From positions 1-20,415 of the IMG/VR virus record IMGVR_UViG_3300013133_000087: a stretch of 20,415 nt of DNA. One strand, 5' to 3'. This DNA is from a virus. The notes beneath the pieces were generated by a model. The model saw only the letters and a program-made list of their open reading frames with translations, searched no databases and was not told the DNA's origin. The position numbers and the translations under genes were made by a program. Positions 10,063-20,415 of the stretch are shown here, piece by piece; the first letter of the stretch is position 1; each line of letters starts with the position of its first letter.

Positions 10063-10392
10063 CTACCAAAAAGCTTTTAATTTTATATATCGTTCAAATT
10101 CTTCTTGAGAGGAAACATTTAGTTGTTTCCCTTTAATCCACCACTGTTGAGTTCCATTAGCACATTCTACCGCTGGACCATCTTCTCGATGACAATTTCC
10201 ATGTTGATACCACCATTTATTTCCATTAGCACTCTCAATTGCCGGACCATCTACTCGATGAAGTTTTCCTTGTTGATACCAATGTTTAGTTCCATTAGCA
10301 AATTCAACCGCTGGACCAGCCTCTCGGTGGAATTGGTCTTGATCATTATACCAAATTTTAGTTCCAAACTGATTAATTATCGACTGATTCAT
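10063..10392 (-). CDS. MORN-like repeat protein, 109 aa
   Basis: An N-terminal cap (MNQSIINQFGTKIWYNDQDQ) is followed by repeats of about 23 residues with the pattern WYQxGxxHRxDGPAxExANGxK, then a C-terminal cap (GKQLNVSSQEEFERYIKLKA ending FW). This is the MORN-variant type of beta-hairpin repeat common in phages and giant viruses; its job is not known, and protein-protein interaction is only a guess. The same caps recur in the genes at 15.7 kb and 18.5-20.4 kb. Its start overlaps the end of a 30-residue reading frame. Confidence 0.88.
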   Translation of the reverse strand: MNQSIINQFGTKIWYNDQDQFHREAGPAVEFANGTKHWYQQGKLHRVDGPAIESANGNKWWYQHGNCHREDGPAVECANGTQQWWIKGKQLNVSSQEEFERYIKLKAFW

Positions 10393-10465
10393 CTTTTACC
10401 AAAATGCCTTTAACTTTATCAGTCCATTTTTTTGATCCATCAGGAAAAGTTTTGCATTTAATCAT
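10373..10465 (-). CDS. Short MORN-like reading frame, 30 aa
   Basis: ATG 10465 follows GGTGA and opens a 30-residue frame beginning MIKCKTFPDGSKKWTDKVKG, which contains one MORN-like half repeat (FPDGSKKW). It overlaps the first codons of the next MORN gene in another frame. It may be a decayed MORN gene or a small real one. Confidence 0.35.
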   Translation of the reverse strand: MIKCKTFPDGSKKWTDKVKGILVKDESVDN

Positions 10466-10469
10466 ATGT

Positions 10470-10511
10470 TCACCAGAAAGGCTTTAACTTCAAATATCGA
10501 ATGAACTCTTC
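10470..10511 (-). pseudogene. Severed C-terminal cap of a MORN-like gene
   Basis: The minus strand encodes EEFIRYLKLKPFW and a stop, matching the C-terminal cap of the complete MORN proteins (EEFERYLKLKAFW). The repeats that should precede it are missing; instead the first 12-nt intergenic element begins at the very next base (10512). I read this as the left junction of the G+C-richer cassette, inserted into or replacing a MORN gene. Confidence 0.7.
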
Positions 10512-10523
10512 TTAGTCGCTAGG
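10512..10523 (-). repeat. 12-nt intergenic element, copy 1
   Basis: Leftmost copy; its TAA ends the 42-residue membrane peptide, and the MORN C-terminal remnant starts at the next base. No gene with its own start follows it directly. Confidence 0.85.
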
Positions 10524-10640
10524 TGCGCCGATCTTGTGTCCTAGGACGGTAAACCCGCTGGTCCAAGCTTGTGGAATGAACATGTTGATCAGCATCATCA
10601 TTCCTAGCATTCCTGCCACAACTACAAGAATCTTTCCCAT
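10512..10640 (-). CDS. Small membrane peptide, truncated paralogue, 42 aa
   Basis: GGAAGG precedes ATG 10640. The peptide starts MGKILVVVAGMLGMMMLINM, one hydrophobic helix, and continues to VLGHKI. Up to there it is almost identical to the 56-residue peptide at 14770-14940. The second membrane helix of that paralogue is absent: after GHKI the frame runs GAPSD and stops at the TAA inside copy 1 of the 12-nt element. I infer duplication followed by recombination at the element. Confidence 0.65.
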   Translation of the reverse strand: MGKILVVVAGMLGMMMLINMFIPQAWTSGFTVLGHKIGAPSD

Positions 10641-10675
10641 TGTCCTTCCTTTTTACCTAGGTTGAGCTTCTACTC

Positions 10676-11044
10676 TCAAGCGCCCATCATTCTTTCAAGT
10701 TTCTGAATATGAAGAGAATCGAGACGTTCCTTTTCTTGGAGATCCCAAGCTTGCAATGCACGCACATCTTTGCAAGCAGATCGATCGATGACATCGATCA
10801 CATTCAATCCACGACAAAGGGGACAGACAACATTGAACATATCCCCATGAAAGTATTCATACCTCTCTTCTTCGTCAAAAGTCTCTCGAAACTCTTCGAG
10901 AGTAAAGTCAAGATGACGAAGTCCACCACAAAGAACCTTGCCCTCTCCTTTACAATTAGGACAAACTTCTTTTTTGCTAGGAAAAGAATGGATCTCTTCC
11001 TCCCCAGAATCAGTGTAATCACCACTGATGGTAACTTCAATCAT
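10676..11044 (-). CDS. Phage zinc-motif protein with two CxxC pairs, 122 aa
   Basis: A perfect AGGAGG lies before ATG 11044 (MIEVTISGDYTD), so I do not use the in-frame start nine codons upstream. CPNCKGEGKV and CPLCRGLNVI are two DnaJ-like zinc half-sites, separated by an acidic segment (LTLEEF-like, then EEERYEYFHGDMF). This matches a family of small phage zinc proteins found beside morphogenesis or replication genes; the function is unknown. The C-terminal third is a charged helix ending LERMMGA. Confidence 0.8.
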   Translation of the reverse strand: MIEVTISGDYTDSGEEEIHSFPSKKEVCPNCKGEGKVLCGGLRHLDFTLEEFRETFDEEERYEYFHGDMFNVVCPLCRGLNVIDVIDRSACKDVRALQAWDLQEKERLDSLHIQKLERMMGA

Positions 11045-11071
11045 CACAATCCTCCTGTTGTTGGTACTCAA

Positions 11072-11149
11072 AGGTTCTGCTTCTAGGTTCTGCTTCTACT
11101 CTTACGCCTCAACCTTTTGAGACGCAAGCGTTGACTCAGAAGTGCGTTT
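11072..11149 (-). repeat. Tandem 13-bp repeat in intergenic region
   Basis: Within this gene-free stretch GGTTCTGCTTCTA occurs twice head to tail (about 11071-11096), followed by a small hairpin around CTCAA...TTGAG. I see no promoter. Confidence 0.5.
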
Positions 11150-11188
11150 CTACTTGCGCCGATTCAGAAACTCTTCTTCGGTTAACTG

Positions 11189-11377
11189 TTAACCATGGAT
11201 CCAATATGTTTTGGATCCATCATCAGCATATTCAATCGCAGGACCCTCTTCTCGATGGTACTCACCTTTCTCATCATACCAAAACTTGGAGCCAGCGTGG
11301 TCAATCACGCACGTACCACCATTCTCCAATTGCTGTCTTTTACCTTTTTCATTATCCCAATAATCCCAATAATTCAT
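11189..11377 (-). CDS. MORN-like protein truncated by an in-frame TAA, 62 aa
   Basis: ATG 11377 overlaps the stop of the 37-residue gene (ATGA). After an unusual N terminus (MNYWDYWDNEKGKRQQ) comes one cap unit (GSKFWYDEKGEYHREEGPAI) and a final KTYWIHG, then TAA at 11189-11191. Beyond the TAA the same frame continues QLTEEEFLNRRK to a TAG at 11150, matching the C-terminal cap of the MORN gene at 15663 (KLTQEEFLSRRA). So a Lys- or Glu-type codon appears to have become TAA, removing the cap. It may be a pseudogene, a readthrough product or still active when short. Confidence 0.6.
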   Translation of the reverse strand: MNYWDYWDNEKGKRQQLENGGTCVIDHAGSKFWYDEKGEYHREEGPAIEYADDGSKTYWIHG

Positions 11378-13087: not shown

Positions 13088-13099
13088 TTAGTCGCTAGG
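13088..13099 (-). repeat. 12-nt intergenic element, copy 5
   Basis: Exact core. It abuts the 3' end of the first tRNA-like element; the 48-residue gene follows. Confidence 0.9.
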
Positions 13100-13161
13100 C
13101 CCCCCCAAGATTCGAACTTGGATGTGAACGTTTATTCACACTGAACCACATTCTGAGAGAG
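13100..13161 (-). ncRNA. tRNA-like element 1 (shortened)
   Basis: On the minus strand a T arm CCAAG-TTCGAAT-CTTGG (13105-13121) has a canonical T loop. Before it is a hairpin TGTGAA/TTCACA with a 6-nt loop in the anticodon-arm place, and before that GAA-TGTGG-TTC in the D-arm place. CTCTC can pair with the G run after the T arm as a weak acceptor stem using G-T pairs. There is no 7-nt anticodon loop and no CCA, so a working tRNA is doubtful. Confidence 0.45.
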
Positions 13162-13171
13162 TTTCAATTAG

Positions 13172-13235
13172 ACCCCAATCTAGGTCTCGAACCTAGCTCC
13201 AGAGACTAATCTGGAGTTTCCACATACAATTGAGG
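13172..13235 (-). ncRNA. tRNA-like element 2 (shortened)
   Basis: Acceptor strands CCTCAAT and ATTGGGG pair over 7 bp with one G-T; the T arm is CTAGG-TTCGAGA-CCTAG (13180-13196). The only other arm is CTCCAGA/TCTGGAG with a 6-nt loop (TTAGTC). A D arm is missing and the anticodon cannot be assigned. Total length about 64 nt. Confidence 0.5.
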
Positions 13236-13282
13236 TATCCAGCCCTACTCACACTTACTAATCAGTAGTCTCCCCGATTATG

Positions 13283-13310
13283 CAGGAAGTTAGGTGCACC
13301 TAACTTCCTG
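13283..13310. repeat. 28-bp perfect palindrome
   Basis: CAGGAAGTTAGGTG and its exact complement abut with no spacer. It lies just 3' of the ribozyme in the transcribed direction. As RNA it forms a long hairpin that must leave a few bases unpaired in the loop; as DNA it could bind a dimeric protein. Confidence 0.85.
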
Positions 13311-13327
13311 GTCTCGTAGATAACCGC

Positions 13328-13374
13328 AGGCTCATCAGTAAGCGCTTCACGCTTAGACCACGAAGGTTTCGCCT
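13328..13374 (-). ncRNA. Type II hammerhead self-cleaving ribozyme
   Basis: All hammerhead core bases are present in type II order on the minus strand. Stem II 5' strand AGGC (13371-13374); then GAA (G12-A13-A14); stem III ACC-TTCGT-GGT including the A15.1-U16.1 pair (13357-13367); cleavage base C17 at 13356, giving a GUC site; stem I TAAGCG-TGAAG-CGCTTA (13339-13355, a perfect 6-bp stem); the CTGATGA box (13332-13338); and stem II 3' strand GCCT (13328-13331), pairing fully with AGGC. Stem II can continue after an internal loop (ATAA with TTAT). Cleavage is predicted between 13356 and 13355. Type II hammerheads are known from phage and bacterial genomes. It lies in a gene-free stretch between copies 5 and 6 of the 12-nt element, with tRNA-like elements downstream. 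Confidence 0.87.
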
Positions 13375-13388
13375 TTATTGTCGCGTTC

Positions 13389-13421
13389 ACTCATGGGAGA
13401 CAACTAGTATCTCCCATGAGT
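13389..13421. repeat. 12-bp inverted repeat (hairpin) next to copy 6
   Basis: ACTCATGGGAGA and TCTCCCATGAGT flank a 9-base loop. In the minus-strand transcript it lies between copy 6 and the ribozyme. There is no T run, so it is not an obvious terminator. Confidence 0.8.
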
Positions 13422-13432
13422 TAGTCGCTAGG
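13421..13432 (-). repeat. 12-nt intergenic element, copy 6
   Basis: Exact core. The 140-residue gene stops with TGA three bases before it; the ribozyme/tRNA-like unit follows rather than a coding gene. Confidence 0.9.
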
Positions 13433-13434
13433 AA

Positions 13435-13857
13435 TCACTCGCTGGTGGGAACGTCCGACCAGCGCGAAACACCACTGGAATCACCACGACCACGCTTGAT
13501 TCGGAACGTTCGAGTGCGGGGCGGCTCACCAGCCTGAAGCAGAGCCCCAGTCTTGCGATCCTTCTTCTCCGGCTGATCCGCATTCTGCTGGATGTAGGCG
13601 TGAATCTTCTTTTCCAGCGTCATGTAGTTAGCAGGCTGCGCTCCAAGCCCCTGGAGAGTGAAAGAGATGAGAGCAGGCATGTTGAGAGAAGCCCCAGCAT
13701 ACCGATCGAAAACCGCGTGAACGGCATTCCCGATAGACTCCTCCTCCAAGAGACGCTCAGCCTTGAAGACCTCCATGTTATCCTTGAAGGCCTGGACAGA
13801 GCGCTCCTCATCGATGGAGCCGTCGGTGTGGAAACAGAGAACAGTGTTGATATTCAT
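13435..13857 (-). CDS. Phage protein of unknown function, 140 aa
   Basis: AAAGG precedes ATG 13857. The protein begins MNINTVLCFHTDGSIDEERS; the middle is helical (YMTLEKKIHAYIQQNADQPE), and the C-terminal 35 residues are basic and Arg/Thr/Gly-rich (RTRTFRIKRGRGDSSG), probably a flexible nucleic-acid-binding tail by inference. It ends DVPTSE with TGA. Its leader has a 20-bp tandem repeat. No family recognised. Confidence 0.78.
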   Translation of the reverse strand: MNINTVLCFHTDGSIDEERSVQAFKDNMEVFKAERLLEEESIGNAVHAVFDRYAGASLNMPALISFTLQGLGAQPANYMTLEKKIHAYIQQNADQPEKKDRKTGALLQAGEPPRTRTFRIKRGRGDSSGVSRWSDVPTSE

Positions 13858-14295: not shown

Positions 14296-14358
14296 TGGGC
14301 TTCAATCCAAGAGTCGAACTTGGATCCCTACGCATAGGCTGGGCCGGTCCCATTGAAG
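14296..14358 (-). ncRNA. tRNA-like element 3, with encoded CCA (shortened)
   Basis: Acceptor strands CTTCAAT (14352-14358) and ATTGAAG (14300-14306) pair perfectly over 7 bp, followed by discriminator C and CCA. The T arm is CCAAG-TTCGACT-CTTGG (14307-14323). The middle is 28 nt instead of about 43: GGG-ACCGG-CCC in the D place and CCTA-TGCG-TAGG in the anticodon place, so no standard anticodon loop. The same DNA also holds a 26-codon frame (MGPAQPMRRDPSSTLGLKPN) after GAGGAAAG; its relative at 16081 encodes MGIGPYPSSSLGLKPEGPSD, so a peptide-coding reading remains possible. Confidence 0.5.
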
Positions 14359-14460
14359 CTTTCCTCGATGCAGATTATTGCCAAGTGTCTTGGGGAAAAG
14401 CACTCACTTGGCTAGAGATAACGCCGTGTCTGAATCATTATGTTTCACACCTTTCCACGA
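14359..14460 (-). other. Hairpin-bearing leader between copy 8 and tRNA-like element 3
   Basis: GCCAAGTG and CACTTGGC (14390-14412) form a perfect 8-bp stem with a 7-nt loop. After copy 8, GGAAAGG leads to an 8-codon micro-frame (MIQTRRYL). No longer gene is seen. Confidence 0.5.
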
Positions 14461-14772: not shown

Positions 14773-14940
14773 TGACTTGAGACCCCAGGCAATGTAGAGG
14801 AATCCGACCATCAGGACCAGACCCCAAACGATCTTGTGTCCTAGAATGGTAAAACCGCTGTTCCAAGCTTGGGGAATGAACATGTTGATCAACATCAGCA
14901 TTCCGAGCATTCCGGCCACGACCACTAGAATCTTTCCCAT
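14770..14940 (-). CDS. Small two-helix membrane protein, 56 aa
   Basis: The protein starts MGKILVVVAGMLGMLMLINM (first membrane helix), then FIPQAWNSGFTILGHK, then a second helix VWGLVLMVGFLYIAWGL ending KS. A GGATAAG-like weak ribosome site precedes ATG 14940. It is the full-length paralogue of the truncated peptide at 10512-10640. A holin-like or membrane-anchoring role is conceivable from size and topology but not shown. Confidence 0.7.
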   Translation of the reverse strand: MGKILVVVAGMLGMLMLINMFIPQAWNSGFTILGHKIVWGLVLMVGFLYIAWGLKS

Positions 14941-15662: not shown

Positions 15663-15962
15663 TCACGCACGTCTGCTCAGAAACTCTTCTTGCGTCAACT
15701 TTTCGCCTCGAATCCAATATTCTTTGGACCCATCAGCCCATTCGATCGCCGGGCCATCTTCTCGATGAAGTTTATCATGTTGATACCACTTCACCCCTCC
15801 ATTGGCATATTCAATGGCCGGTCCATTTTCTCGATGAAGCTTGTCATGTTGGAGCCAATATTTGGCTCCATCAGCACACTCAATGGCAGGCGCATCATGA
15901 ATAGGTGTGAGACTGACCGCTTTGGTACCAAAAGGTGGTACAATCAACAAGGTCAGTATCAT
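15663..15962 (-). CDS. MORN-like protein with inverted N-terminal segment, 99 aa
   Basis: AAGGGA lies before ATG 15962, which overlaps the stop of the 29-residue gene (ATGA). From residue ~23 on it is a normal MORN protein (HDAPAIECADGAKYWLQHDK, two more repeats, cap GEKLTQEEFLSRRA). The first ~22 residues (MILTLLIVPPFGTKAVSLTP) are unlike any MORN cap, yet the plus strand at the same place encodes MNRCETDRFGTKRWYNQQGQ followed by YHRD, a perfect MORN N-terminal cap. So the 5' end has been inverted in place while the frame stayed open. Confidence 0.78.
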   Translation of the reverse strand: MILTLLIVPPFGTKAVSLTPIHDAPAIECADGAKYWLQHDKLHRENGPAIEYANGGVKWYQHDKLHREDGPAIEWADGSKEYWIRGEKLTQEEFLSRRA

Positions 15963-16080: not shown

Positions 16081-16128
16081 GCTTCAATCCAAGACTCGAA
16101 CTTGGGTATGGGCCAATCCCCATTGAAG
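16081..16128 (-). ncRNA. tRNA-like element 4 (minimal)
   Basis: CTTCAAT (16122-16128) pairs with ATTGAAG (16082-16088) over 7 bp; T arm CCAAG-TTCGAGT-CTTGG (16089-16105); one further hairpin TGGG-GATTGG-CCCA replaces both D and anticodon arms. Acceptor and T arm are almost the same as in element 3, so the two are related. About 48 nt, no CCA (CCG). The overlapping 20-codon frame MGIGPYPSSSLGLKPEGPSD, ending in copy 15's TAA, is the alternative reading. Confidence 0.5.
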
Positions 16129-16240
16129 CTGTCATACACTACCCTATCCTACATGACACTACATGACACTACCCTCGGTTGAAAGGTTCACTGCGCCATA
16201 GTACAAAGGAGAGCCAGTTAAAGCATTAGATGCCTCACTT
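16129..16240 (-). other. Gene-free stretch with short direct repeats
   Basis: ACATGACACT occurs twice in tandem and CACTACCCT twice around it (about 16136-16173). No gene or clear promoter is seen. Confidence 0.5.
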
Positions 16241-18474: not shown

Positions 18475-19077
18475 TCACCAAAAGGGTCTTAATTTGAGAT
18501 ATCTTTCGAAATCTAATTGGGAGGAAACCTTGATCTGTTTTCCTTGGAAGTACCAATCTTTAGTACCATCCGGCCATTCAACGGCAGGACCGTCTACTCG
18601 GTGTAATTGATTATGTTGCAACCATTCTTTAGTTCCATTGAAAAGTTCAATCGCTGGACCATCTTCTCGATGAAGTTGGCCATGTTGAATCCAATATTTA
18701 TCTCCATTAGCATATTCTATGGATGGTCCATCTTCTCGATGACGTTTTCCATGTTGAAACCATTCTTTAGTTCCATCAGCATACTCAATGGCTGGACCGT
18801 CTACTCTGTGTAATTGACCATGTTGGTACCATTTTTTAGCTCCATCAGCTAACTCGACAGCTGGACTGTCTACTCGATGCAAGTGACCATGTTGATACCA
18901 CCATTTATTTCCATTAGCATCTTCAGCTGCCGGACCATCTTCTCGATGTTTTTTACCATGTTGATACCATTCTTTAGCTCCATTAGCATATTCAATGGCA
19001 GGGCCATCGTCTCGGTGGAATTGATGTTGATCATTAAGCCAGTATTTATTACCATCTTTATCAATTTGGGGATTCAT
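18475..19077 (-). CDS. MORN-like repeat protein, 200 aa
   Basis: N-terminal cap MNPQIDKDGNKYWLNDQHQF, then seven repeats of 23 residues (WYQHGxxHRxDGPAxExAxGxK with changes such as WFQHGKRHREDG and WLQHNQLHRVDG), then cap GKQIKVSSQLDFERYLKLRP ending FW and TGA. It is the longest complete member of the array. Repeat number differs between members, as expected from unequal recombination. Role unknown; repeats of this kind usually form a beta-hairpin solenoid for binding. Confidence 0.9.
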   Translation of the reverse strand: MNPQIDKDGNKYWLNDQHQFHRDDGPAIEYANGAKEWYQHGKKHREDGPAAEDANGNKWWYQHGHLHRVDSPAVELADGAKKWYQHGQLHRVDGPAIEYADGTKEWFQHGKRHREDGPSIEYANGDKYWIQHGQLHREDGPAIELFNGTKEWLQHNQLHRVDGPAVEWPDGTKDWYFQGKQIKVSSQLDFERYLKLRPFW

Positions 19078-19081
19078 TGTT

Positions 19082-19408
19082 TCACCAGAAGGCTTTCAGT
19101 TTGAGGAGTCGTTCAAATTCTAATTGGGAGGAGACCTCGATATATTTTCCTTGGAAGTGCCAATATTGCAGGCCATCATCATAGATGGTGGCAGGACCAT
19201 CTACTCGATGACGTTTTCCATGTTGATACCAGAATTTATCTCCATCAGCATCTTCAATCGCTGGGCCATCTTCTCGATGAAGATTGCCATGTTGATACCA
19301 CCACTTATCTCCATTAGCCCATTCAACCGCTGGGCCATCCTCTTGATTTAGTAGGTCTTGGTCATTGTACCAGAATTTGTTGCCAAGGCGATCAGTTTTA
19401 GTATACAT
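19082..19408 (-). CDS. MORN-like repeat protein, 108 aa
   Basis: Cap MYTKTDRLGNKFWYNDQDLL, three repeats (WYQHGNLHREDG, WYQHGKRHRVDG among them), cap GKYIEVSSQLEFERLLKLKA ending FW, TGA. It lies four bases before the 200-residue member. The conserved last codons TTC-TGG-TGA supply GGTGA as ribosome site for the next gene, so the array can be translated in series. Its cap is nearly the same as that of the next copy upstream. Confidence 0.88.
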   Translation of the reverse strand: MYTKTDRLGNKFWYNDQDLLNQEDGPAVEWANGDKWWYQHGNLHREDGPAIEDADGDKFWYQHGKRHRVDGPATIYDDGLQYWHFQGKYIEVSSQLEFERLLKLKAFW

Positions 19409-19412
19409 AGTT

Positions 19413-19739
19413 TTACCAGAAAGCTTTTAGTTTGAGATAGCGTTCAAATTCTTGTTGTGATTTGACGTTGATTAATTGTCCTTGCAAGAACCATTCTTTA
19501 GATCCATTAGCATATTCAACCGCTGGACCATCTTCTCGATGCAATTTATCATATTGATACCAAAATTTATCCCCACTAGCCAATTCTACCGCTGGACCAT
19601 CTTCTCGATGACATTGATCATGTTGATACCAAGCTTTAGATCCAACAGAATATTCAATGGCTGGGCCATCGTCTTGGTGGAGCTGTTGTTGGTCATTATA
19701 ATATCTTTTGTTACCATTTTGGTCAGTTTTGGTGTACAT
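19413..19739 (-). CDS. MORN-like repeat protein, 108 aa
   Basis: Cap MYTKTDQNGNKRYYNDQQQL, three repeats (WYQHDQCHREDG, WYQYDKLHREDG), then WFLQGQLINVKSQQEFERYL ending KLKAFW and TAA. Same length as its downstream neighbour, from which it differs mostly at repeat positions facing outwards in such solenoids (inference). Confidence 0.88.
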   Translation of the reverse strand: MYTKTDQNGNKRYYNDQQQLHQDDGPAIEYSVGSKAWYQHDQCHREDGPAVELASGDKFWYQYDKLHREDGPAVEYANGSKEWFLQGQLINVKSQQEFERYLKLKAFW

Positions 19740-19743
19740 CTTT

Positions 19744-20415
19744 TTACCAGAAAGCTTTTAGTTTGAGATATCTTTCGAATTCTTGTTGGGATTTAACATT
19801 AATTTGTTTTCCTCTGATGTACCATTCTTGGTCACCATTAGAATGAATCATGGCTGGACCATTATCTCGATGTCGTTTGCCATGTTGATACCAATGTTTA
19901 GTTCCATTAGTCCATTCATGGGAGGATACCTCGATCTGTTTTCCTTGGAAGTACCAATATAGGTTATTATTAGGATGGATGATAGCGGGACCATCTAATC
20001 GATGTAATTGACCATGTTGGTACCATTCTTTGGTTCCATCAGCATGCTCAACTGCTGGGCCATCATCTCGATGTAGTTCTCCATGTTGAAGCCATTCTTT
20101 AGATCCATTAGCTTCTTCAACCGCTGGACCATCTACTCGATGATATTGATCATGTTGATACCATTCTTTGGTTCCATCAGCATCTTCAATTGCTGGACCA
20201 TCATCTCGATGACGTTTACCATCTTGATACCAAATTTTAGTTCCATTAGCATCTTCAATCGCTGGGCCATCTTCTCGATGACGTTTTCCATGTTGATACC
20301 AATATTTATCTCCATTAGCATCTTCAACAGCAGGGCCATCTTCTCGATGAAGTTTGCCATGTTGATACCACTCTTTAGATCCATCAGCATACTCAATGGC
20401 TGGACCCTCTTCTCG
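19744..20415 (-). CDS. MORN-like repeat protein, partial, with internal fusion scar
   Basis: An open frame of 224 codons runs from the right edge to TAA 19744. It holds at least six regular repeats, then YWYFQGKQIEVSSH, which is the start of a C-terminal cap, but instead of ending it continues EWTNGTKHWYQHGKRHRDNG and a second, complete cap GKQINVKSQQEFERYLKLKA ending FW. I read this as two MORN genes fused by deletion inside the first cap. The start lies outside the window. Confidence 0.85.
   Translation of the reverse strand, partial: REEGPAIEYADGSKEWYQHGKLHREDGPAVEDANGDKYWYQHGKRHREDGPAIEDANGTKIWYQDGKRHRDDGPAIEDADGTKEWYQHDQYHRVDGPAVEEANGSKEWLQHGELHRDDGPAVEHADGTKEWYQHGQLHRLDGPAIIHPNNNLYWYFQGKQIEVSSHEWTNGTKHWYQHGKRHRDNGPAMIHSNGDQEWYIRGKQINVKSQQEFERYLKLKAFW

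Follow-up and report, generated by a model that had tools for sequence, protein, structure and literature searches.

A probable cis-cleaving hammerhead ribozyme of a compact type II subfamily upstream of tRNA-like folds in an uncultivated phage genome

Introduction

Hammerhead ribozymes situated beside genes are already known in phages and prophages; those of prophages border single genes or short blocks of genes and have been suggested to break long transcripts up into shorter mRNAs (Perreault et al. 2011, PMC3088659). The type II permutation is represented in Rfam by the Hammerhead_II family (RF02276), and the published acceptance rules ask for intact core bases and for core-flanking pairs free of any mispair (PMC3088659). 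The locus described here lies in a stretch of 20,415 nucleotides of viral DNA, analysed in full and referred to as the window, and adds a well-supported ribozyme to an uncultivated phage with RecA relatives on contigs as large as 480 kb. The kind of hammerhead is thus a known one, and the window ribozyme is an additional member in an unusual setting; its added interest is that Rfam overlooks most of the compact subfamily to which it belongs and that tRNA-like RNA, not a gene, is predicted downstream.

Anatomy of the ribozyme

The motif occupies 13328..13374 on the minus strand, is 47 bases long and intergenic, and shares its strand with the genes of the window that encode recognisable proteins. 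From 13374 to 13328 it reads AGGC-GAA-ACC(UUCGU)GGU-C/UAAGCG(UGAAG)CGCUUA-CUGAUGA-GCCU, with the predicted cut at the slash. Specifically, the outer strands form stem II (AGGC/GCCU, 4 bp, 13371-13374 with 13328-13331), which encloses the GAA core segment (13368-13370), the 11-nt stem III hairpin (ACC/GGU, 3 bp, five-base loop UUCGU, 13357-13367), the 17-nt stem I hairpin (UAAGCG/CGCUUA, 6 bp, 13339-13355), whose UGAAG loop permits an extra U-G pair, and the CUGAUGA core box (13332-13338). Stem II is open and stems I and III are closed by loops, which is the type II order. The cleavage site is predicted between C13356 and U13355 from the H17 position of the aligned motif. By the rules of PMC3088659, the scanner and the covariance alignment both find the whole invariant core (CUGANGA, GAA, A15.1-U16.1 and H17), and in the model alignment the core-adjacent pairs 10.1-11.1 (G-C), 1.1-2.1 (U-A) and 15.1-16.1 (A-U) are intact with zero mispairs, in agreement with the published acceptance rules. 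The preliminary description of a complete type II hammerhead located in intergenic phage DNA therefore stands for every core base and stem that it named, on the minus strand, and its cut at 13356/13355 and stem lengths of 6, 4 and 3 bp (stems I, II and III) agree with the sequence read above. Cleavage by hammerheads leaves a 2',3'-cyclic phosphate, which would here be carried by C13356, and a 5'-OH, here that of U13355. Complementarity for a pseudoknot between loop I and the 3' tail is absent in the window hammerhead.

Chance, coding sequence and the type III alternative

A scanner covering all three hammerhead types finds this motif as the sole hammerhead of any type in the window, and a type II match of any quality appears in 53 of 19,285 dinucleotide-preserving shuffled windows (0.27%). 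Moreover, a covariance model trained on 37 other phage hammerheads with the window excluded (R1) scores the motif at 53.7 bits (E = 6e-15; full model, filters off) and the second-best site in the window at 13.6 bits. The fixed pattern GGCGAAACC-N3-7-GGTC-N12-24-CTGATGAGCC occurs in six IMG/VR stretches only, five of which fold as real type II hammerheads. The sixth (L011) has the core and lacks stem I, and as a decoy it reaches 24.4 bits against R1, so that about 29 of the 53.7 bits of the window motif derive from features outside the fixed search pattern. The decoy itself is set down to chance, since stem I pairing is absent and the match falls where a coding frame of an unrelated phage ends, despite its agreement with both the hammerhead pattern and the repeated element described below. 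A search with the exact hammerhead half GGCGAAACCTTCGTGGTC returned a single match (L054), which is likewise judged to be chance. An origin by chance, called very unlikely in the preliminary description, is excluded in view of the shuffles and of the R1 score, and the motif is, as far as sequence comparison can tell, almost certainly a genuine element of the hammerhead family.

A minus-strand open frame, from a GTG at 13390 to a TGA at 13262 (MNATIKAKPSWSKREALTDEPAVIYETRKLGAPNFLHNRGDY), spans the whole motif, which could accordingly be a coding stretch that resembles a hammerhead by accident. Its 42 codons are open and give a plausible-looking peptide, but frames of this length are common by chance, it matches no Pfam family and has no credible relative, and its codon score (-0.166) is lower than the 10th percentile (0.024) for segments read in frame from the neighbouring genes and resembles that of an out-of-frame reading. 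Coding would also leave the paired stems and the loop signature unexplained, so that a coding origin is highly improbable and the frame is regarded as accidental.

Within 13306-13365 (minus strand), UGGUCU of the cleavage-site strand is complementary to an AGACCA just 3' of the ribozyme; this pairing would compete with the hammerhead, and a palindrome at 13284-13309 competes for part of it. The same complementarity would serve a type III hammerhead employing the downstream GAGACC (13306-13311) in place of the upstream GAAACC, and with more flanking sequence the Rfam Hammerhead_3 model (RF00008) indeed matches 13363-13306 at 20.8 bits, the top-scoring Rfam match. This score is far under the cut-off of 48.5, the alignment has a stem II of one pair, and CGAGAC carries a G at the invariant A14 of GAA, whereas the type II reading requires no exception; the type III reading is rejected on account of the replaced A14 and has hardly any probability left.

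The compact subfamily and its detection

A looser pattern run against IMG/VR matches more than 119 phage stretches among the matches listed, and at least 212 distinct type II hammerheads were extracted from them. Among these listed matches the hammerheads form two groups by the length of the stem I hairpin, a long-loop group of 19-24 nt and a compact group of 17-18 nt. Pairing between loop I and the tail after stem II is possible in 90 of 137 long-loop members versus 10 of 65 compact ones. Within the same matches, compact 17-nt stem I hairpins have a recurrent signature, U7 in 44/47 and G11 in 41/47, and an A immediately before stem II is found in 61 of the 65 compact forms (17 or 18 nt). The window hammerhead carries the complete signature of the compact subfamily (17-nt stem I hairpin, U7, G11, A before stem II and a 4-bp stem II), and its stem I loop fits U-N-A-N-G. 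When 37 compact members are aligned, 98.3% of the cells are paired, 13 of 17 pairs have changed on both sides, and the covariation score is 0.754 versus 0.183 in shuffles; as the search for the relatives imposed GGC/GCC and the core, the evidence resides in the unfixed pairs, mainly those of stem I and inner stem III.

Several phage contigs carry very many type II hammerheads each (L141, L069, L097, L060, L162 and other IMG/VR contigs): L162 has 7 within 5.4 kb, L141 more than 10. In addition, a TCATCAG-like string, complementary to the core CUGAUGA, lies 3' of several compact hammerheads (L061, L078, L083, L123, L150 and others); this may reflect an anti-ribozyme switch or be a coincidence.

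Rfam responds poorly to this subfamily. At the gathering thresholds nothing is reported for the window, and a whole-window search with E-values up to 1 returns no match, because these values are multiplied by the window size and by the number of families. In a narrow search, Hammerhead_II scores the motif at 18.9 bits, below the gathering cut-off of 37, which is a detection limit and not a biological feature. Across 16 loci, Rfam recovers 1 of 28 compact type II hammerheads and misses the other 27, and a threshold passed by just one of 28 clear relatives is too strict for the compact form, which the low score of the window motif reflects. The Rfam covariance check put forward with the preliminary description is thus a nominal failure (18.9 bits versus 37) against a threshold that nearly all relatives fail as well. 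It follows that counts of phage ribozymes made at this threshold are too low, since the compact, pseudoknot-free subfamily is largely invisible to it.

Folding, conservation and possible decay

The hammerhead fold of the window has a computed energy of -12.1 kcal/mol, equalled by an alternative fold; for most relatives the values range from -18 to -27. For longer transcripts the computed minimum-energy fold lacks the hammerhead, in a computation that includes neither co-transcriptional folding nor tertiary contacts. The stem III hairpin measures 11 nt, against 13 nt for the shortest of the 212 relatives among the matches listed; the window hairpin thus falls short of a length of at least 13 nt that is the range observed in the compact subfamily and no requirement. 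Furthermore, none of 37 IMG/VR records with a close RecA relative contains a hammerhead, records of up to 480 kb included, and the ribozyme is consequently no fixed ancestral trait of the lineage; two weak matches in these records (18.1 and 12.2 bits) are devoid of the stems.

A stem III hairpin shorter than any other in the set, the weakest fold energy together with the competing folds, and the lack of conservation among the RecA relatives are all compatible with decay of a hammerhead that was inherited or came from other phages; it would still be recognisable, with a stem III so eroded that the RNA no longer cuts in the cell. Conversely, all core bases and core-adjacent pairs are intact, stems I and II are perfectly paired and the loop signature outside the core is kept; under random decay, some of these features would have been damaged. 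Decay is therefore considered unlikely, and a ribozyme that retains its activity is the preferred reading: the native RNA likely cleaves, as judged from its sequence.

The surrounding unit

Upstream of the ribozyme, on the minus strand, lies an ORF of 140 aa (13435..13857) with no Pfam match and no relative found. It is followed at once by a minus-strand copy of a repeated intergenic element, CCTAGCGACTAA(C), here written CCTAGCGACTAAC (about 13420..13432), and then by a perfect 11-bp hairpin, CTCATGGGAGA/TCTCCCATGAG (13390..13420, minus strand), placed between the stop codon of the 140-aa gene and the ribozyme; this hairpin is a possible protector of the 3' end of the upstream RNA after cleavage. 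On the 3' side of the ribozyme, a 26-nt palindrome, AGGAAGTTAGGTGCACCTAACTTCCT (13284..13309, minus strand), forms a 12-bp hairpin in the predicted fold. The tRNA-like folds come next, and the unit ends at another minus-strand copy of the element (13088..13099). The earlier view of a unit bounded by two intergenic elements is consequently upheld by the copies at 13421-13432 and 13088-13099, and that of tRNA-like RNAs after the ribozyme by predicted folds at 13236-13172 and, more weakly, at about 13161-13100.

The element CCTAGCGACTAA is present in 19 copies (15 exact) between 10523 and 17592 of the window, all on the minus strand, usually extended by C-ACGRGAAAGC and spaced from 46 bp to more than 1 kb. 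Several ORFs terminate in the TAG of the copy that follows them, and the element could act as a promoter or mark the boundary of a cassette. With its tail it is found nowhere else in IMG/VR, and the RecA-relative records do not contain it. As a clue to its nature, a T7-type RNA polymerase was searched for, with no match in the large relatives and none in control genomes either, so that the result is not evidence of absence. Many ORFs built from repeats of the WYQHGKLHREDGPAVEYANG type are located at 10063-11377, 15663-15962 and 18475-20396, and one that was tested matches DUF6745. The start of a small ORF (MGKILVVVAGMLGML...) is near-identical at 14820-14940 and 10524-10640 on the minus strand; a copy of the element CCTAGCGACTAA breaks up the latter.

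The first tRNA-like fold, predicted at 13172..13236 on the minus strand and resembling mascRNA, has an 8-bp acceptor, a 5-bp T arm with a TTCGAGA loop and one more hairpin, and is devoid of a D arm. ARAGORN reports no tRNA in it and the tRNA family model does not recognise it. It scores 18.1 bits against the mascRNA-menRNA family (RF01684), below the threshold of 42.5; the likeness lies in an acceptor and a T arm without a normal anticodon arm, and homology is not claimed, mascRNA belonging to a mammalian lncRNA context and fold 1 to a phage. The second fold (about 13162-13095, minus strand) is weaker, with a poor acceptor and a T arm at 13105-13121, and abuts the next element. In the window, three minus-strand folds have an acceptor of at least 7 bp (13172-13236, 14299-14359 and 16081-16129), and all three combine the acceptor stem with a T arm, lack the normal anticodon arm and go unrecognised as tRNAs. 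The acceptor GCTTCAA/TTGAAGC is common to two of them. In 704 kb of DNA from the RecA relatives there is no fold of this sort with an acceptor of at least 7 bp. Another 1.04 Mb of DNA that bears hammerheads has three, all resembling ordinary tRNA genes, and an exact-match search of IMG/VR for the tRNA-like fold found none. The folds at 14359-14299 and 16129-16081 have no hammerhead, which indicates that the ribozyme is not generally required for such RNAs.

Proposed function

Among the relatives, intergenic hammerheads end a median of 26 nt before an ORF of the same strand (53 clean cases); in the wider count of ORF contexts, 167 of 237 sites overlap some ORF, a figure distorted by long antisense ORFs in high-GC contigs. 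The typical position just 5' of a protein-coding gene suggests generic transcript processing, a role that on balance is also favoured for the window hammerhead. From its sequence, structure, family membership and position, a course of transcription and cleavage, and a purpose, may be proposed. Specifically, minus-strand transcripts through 13374-13328 would fold into the hammerhead and cut themselves in cis between C13356 and U13355, dividing the transcript into the 140-aa gene's mRNA and, 3' of it, a non-coding RNA. The mRNA would then end shortly after the strong hairpin with a 2',3'-cyclic phosphate, and the non-coding RNA would start with a 5'-OH and comprise the palindromic hairpin and the two tRNA-like folds. 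Taken as a whole, the locus is, with good probability, a genuine cis-cleaving compact phage type II hammerhead that separates the 140-aa mRNA from non-coding RNA.

Cleavage possibly frees the tRNA-like part, as its putative role. More specifically, the hammerhead might release tRNA mimics that lack an anticodon and start at a defined 5' end, the self-cutting RNA and host tRNA-processing enzymes acting jointly in the maturation of phage tRNA-like RNAs, a speculative and rather doubtful extension. The setting before tRNA-like folds makes the locus a testable case of a ribozyme that matures a phage non-coding RNA.

Comparison with known type II hammerheads

The window hammerhead shares with RF02276 Hammerhead_II (Perreault et al. 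2011, PMC3088659) the permutation, the core, the GGC/GCC of stem II, the GUC cleavage site and an intergenic position in phages. It differs in its stem I hairpin (17 nt against about 21-24 nt), in the 3-bp stem III, in the missing pseudoknot between loop I and the 3' tail, which is common and not universal in type II, in its score below the Rfam threshold, and in having non-coding RNA, not a gene, downstream. Closer counterparts are the compact phage hammerheads of L150, L094, L123 and L162, which have the same 17-nt stem I hairpin, U7, G11, 4-bp stem II and A before stem II, and are equally free of a pseudoknot. In these compact relatives stem III usually has at least 5 bp, in contrast to 3 bp in the window, and several of their contigs carry many hammerheads, whereas the window carries one. 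Lastly, where they can be placed, the compact relatives are mostly directly 5' of ORFs, whereas the window hammerhead precedes a predicted non-coding RNA.
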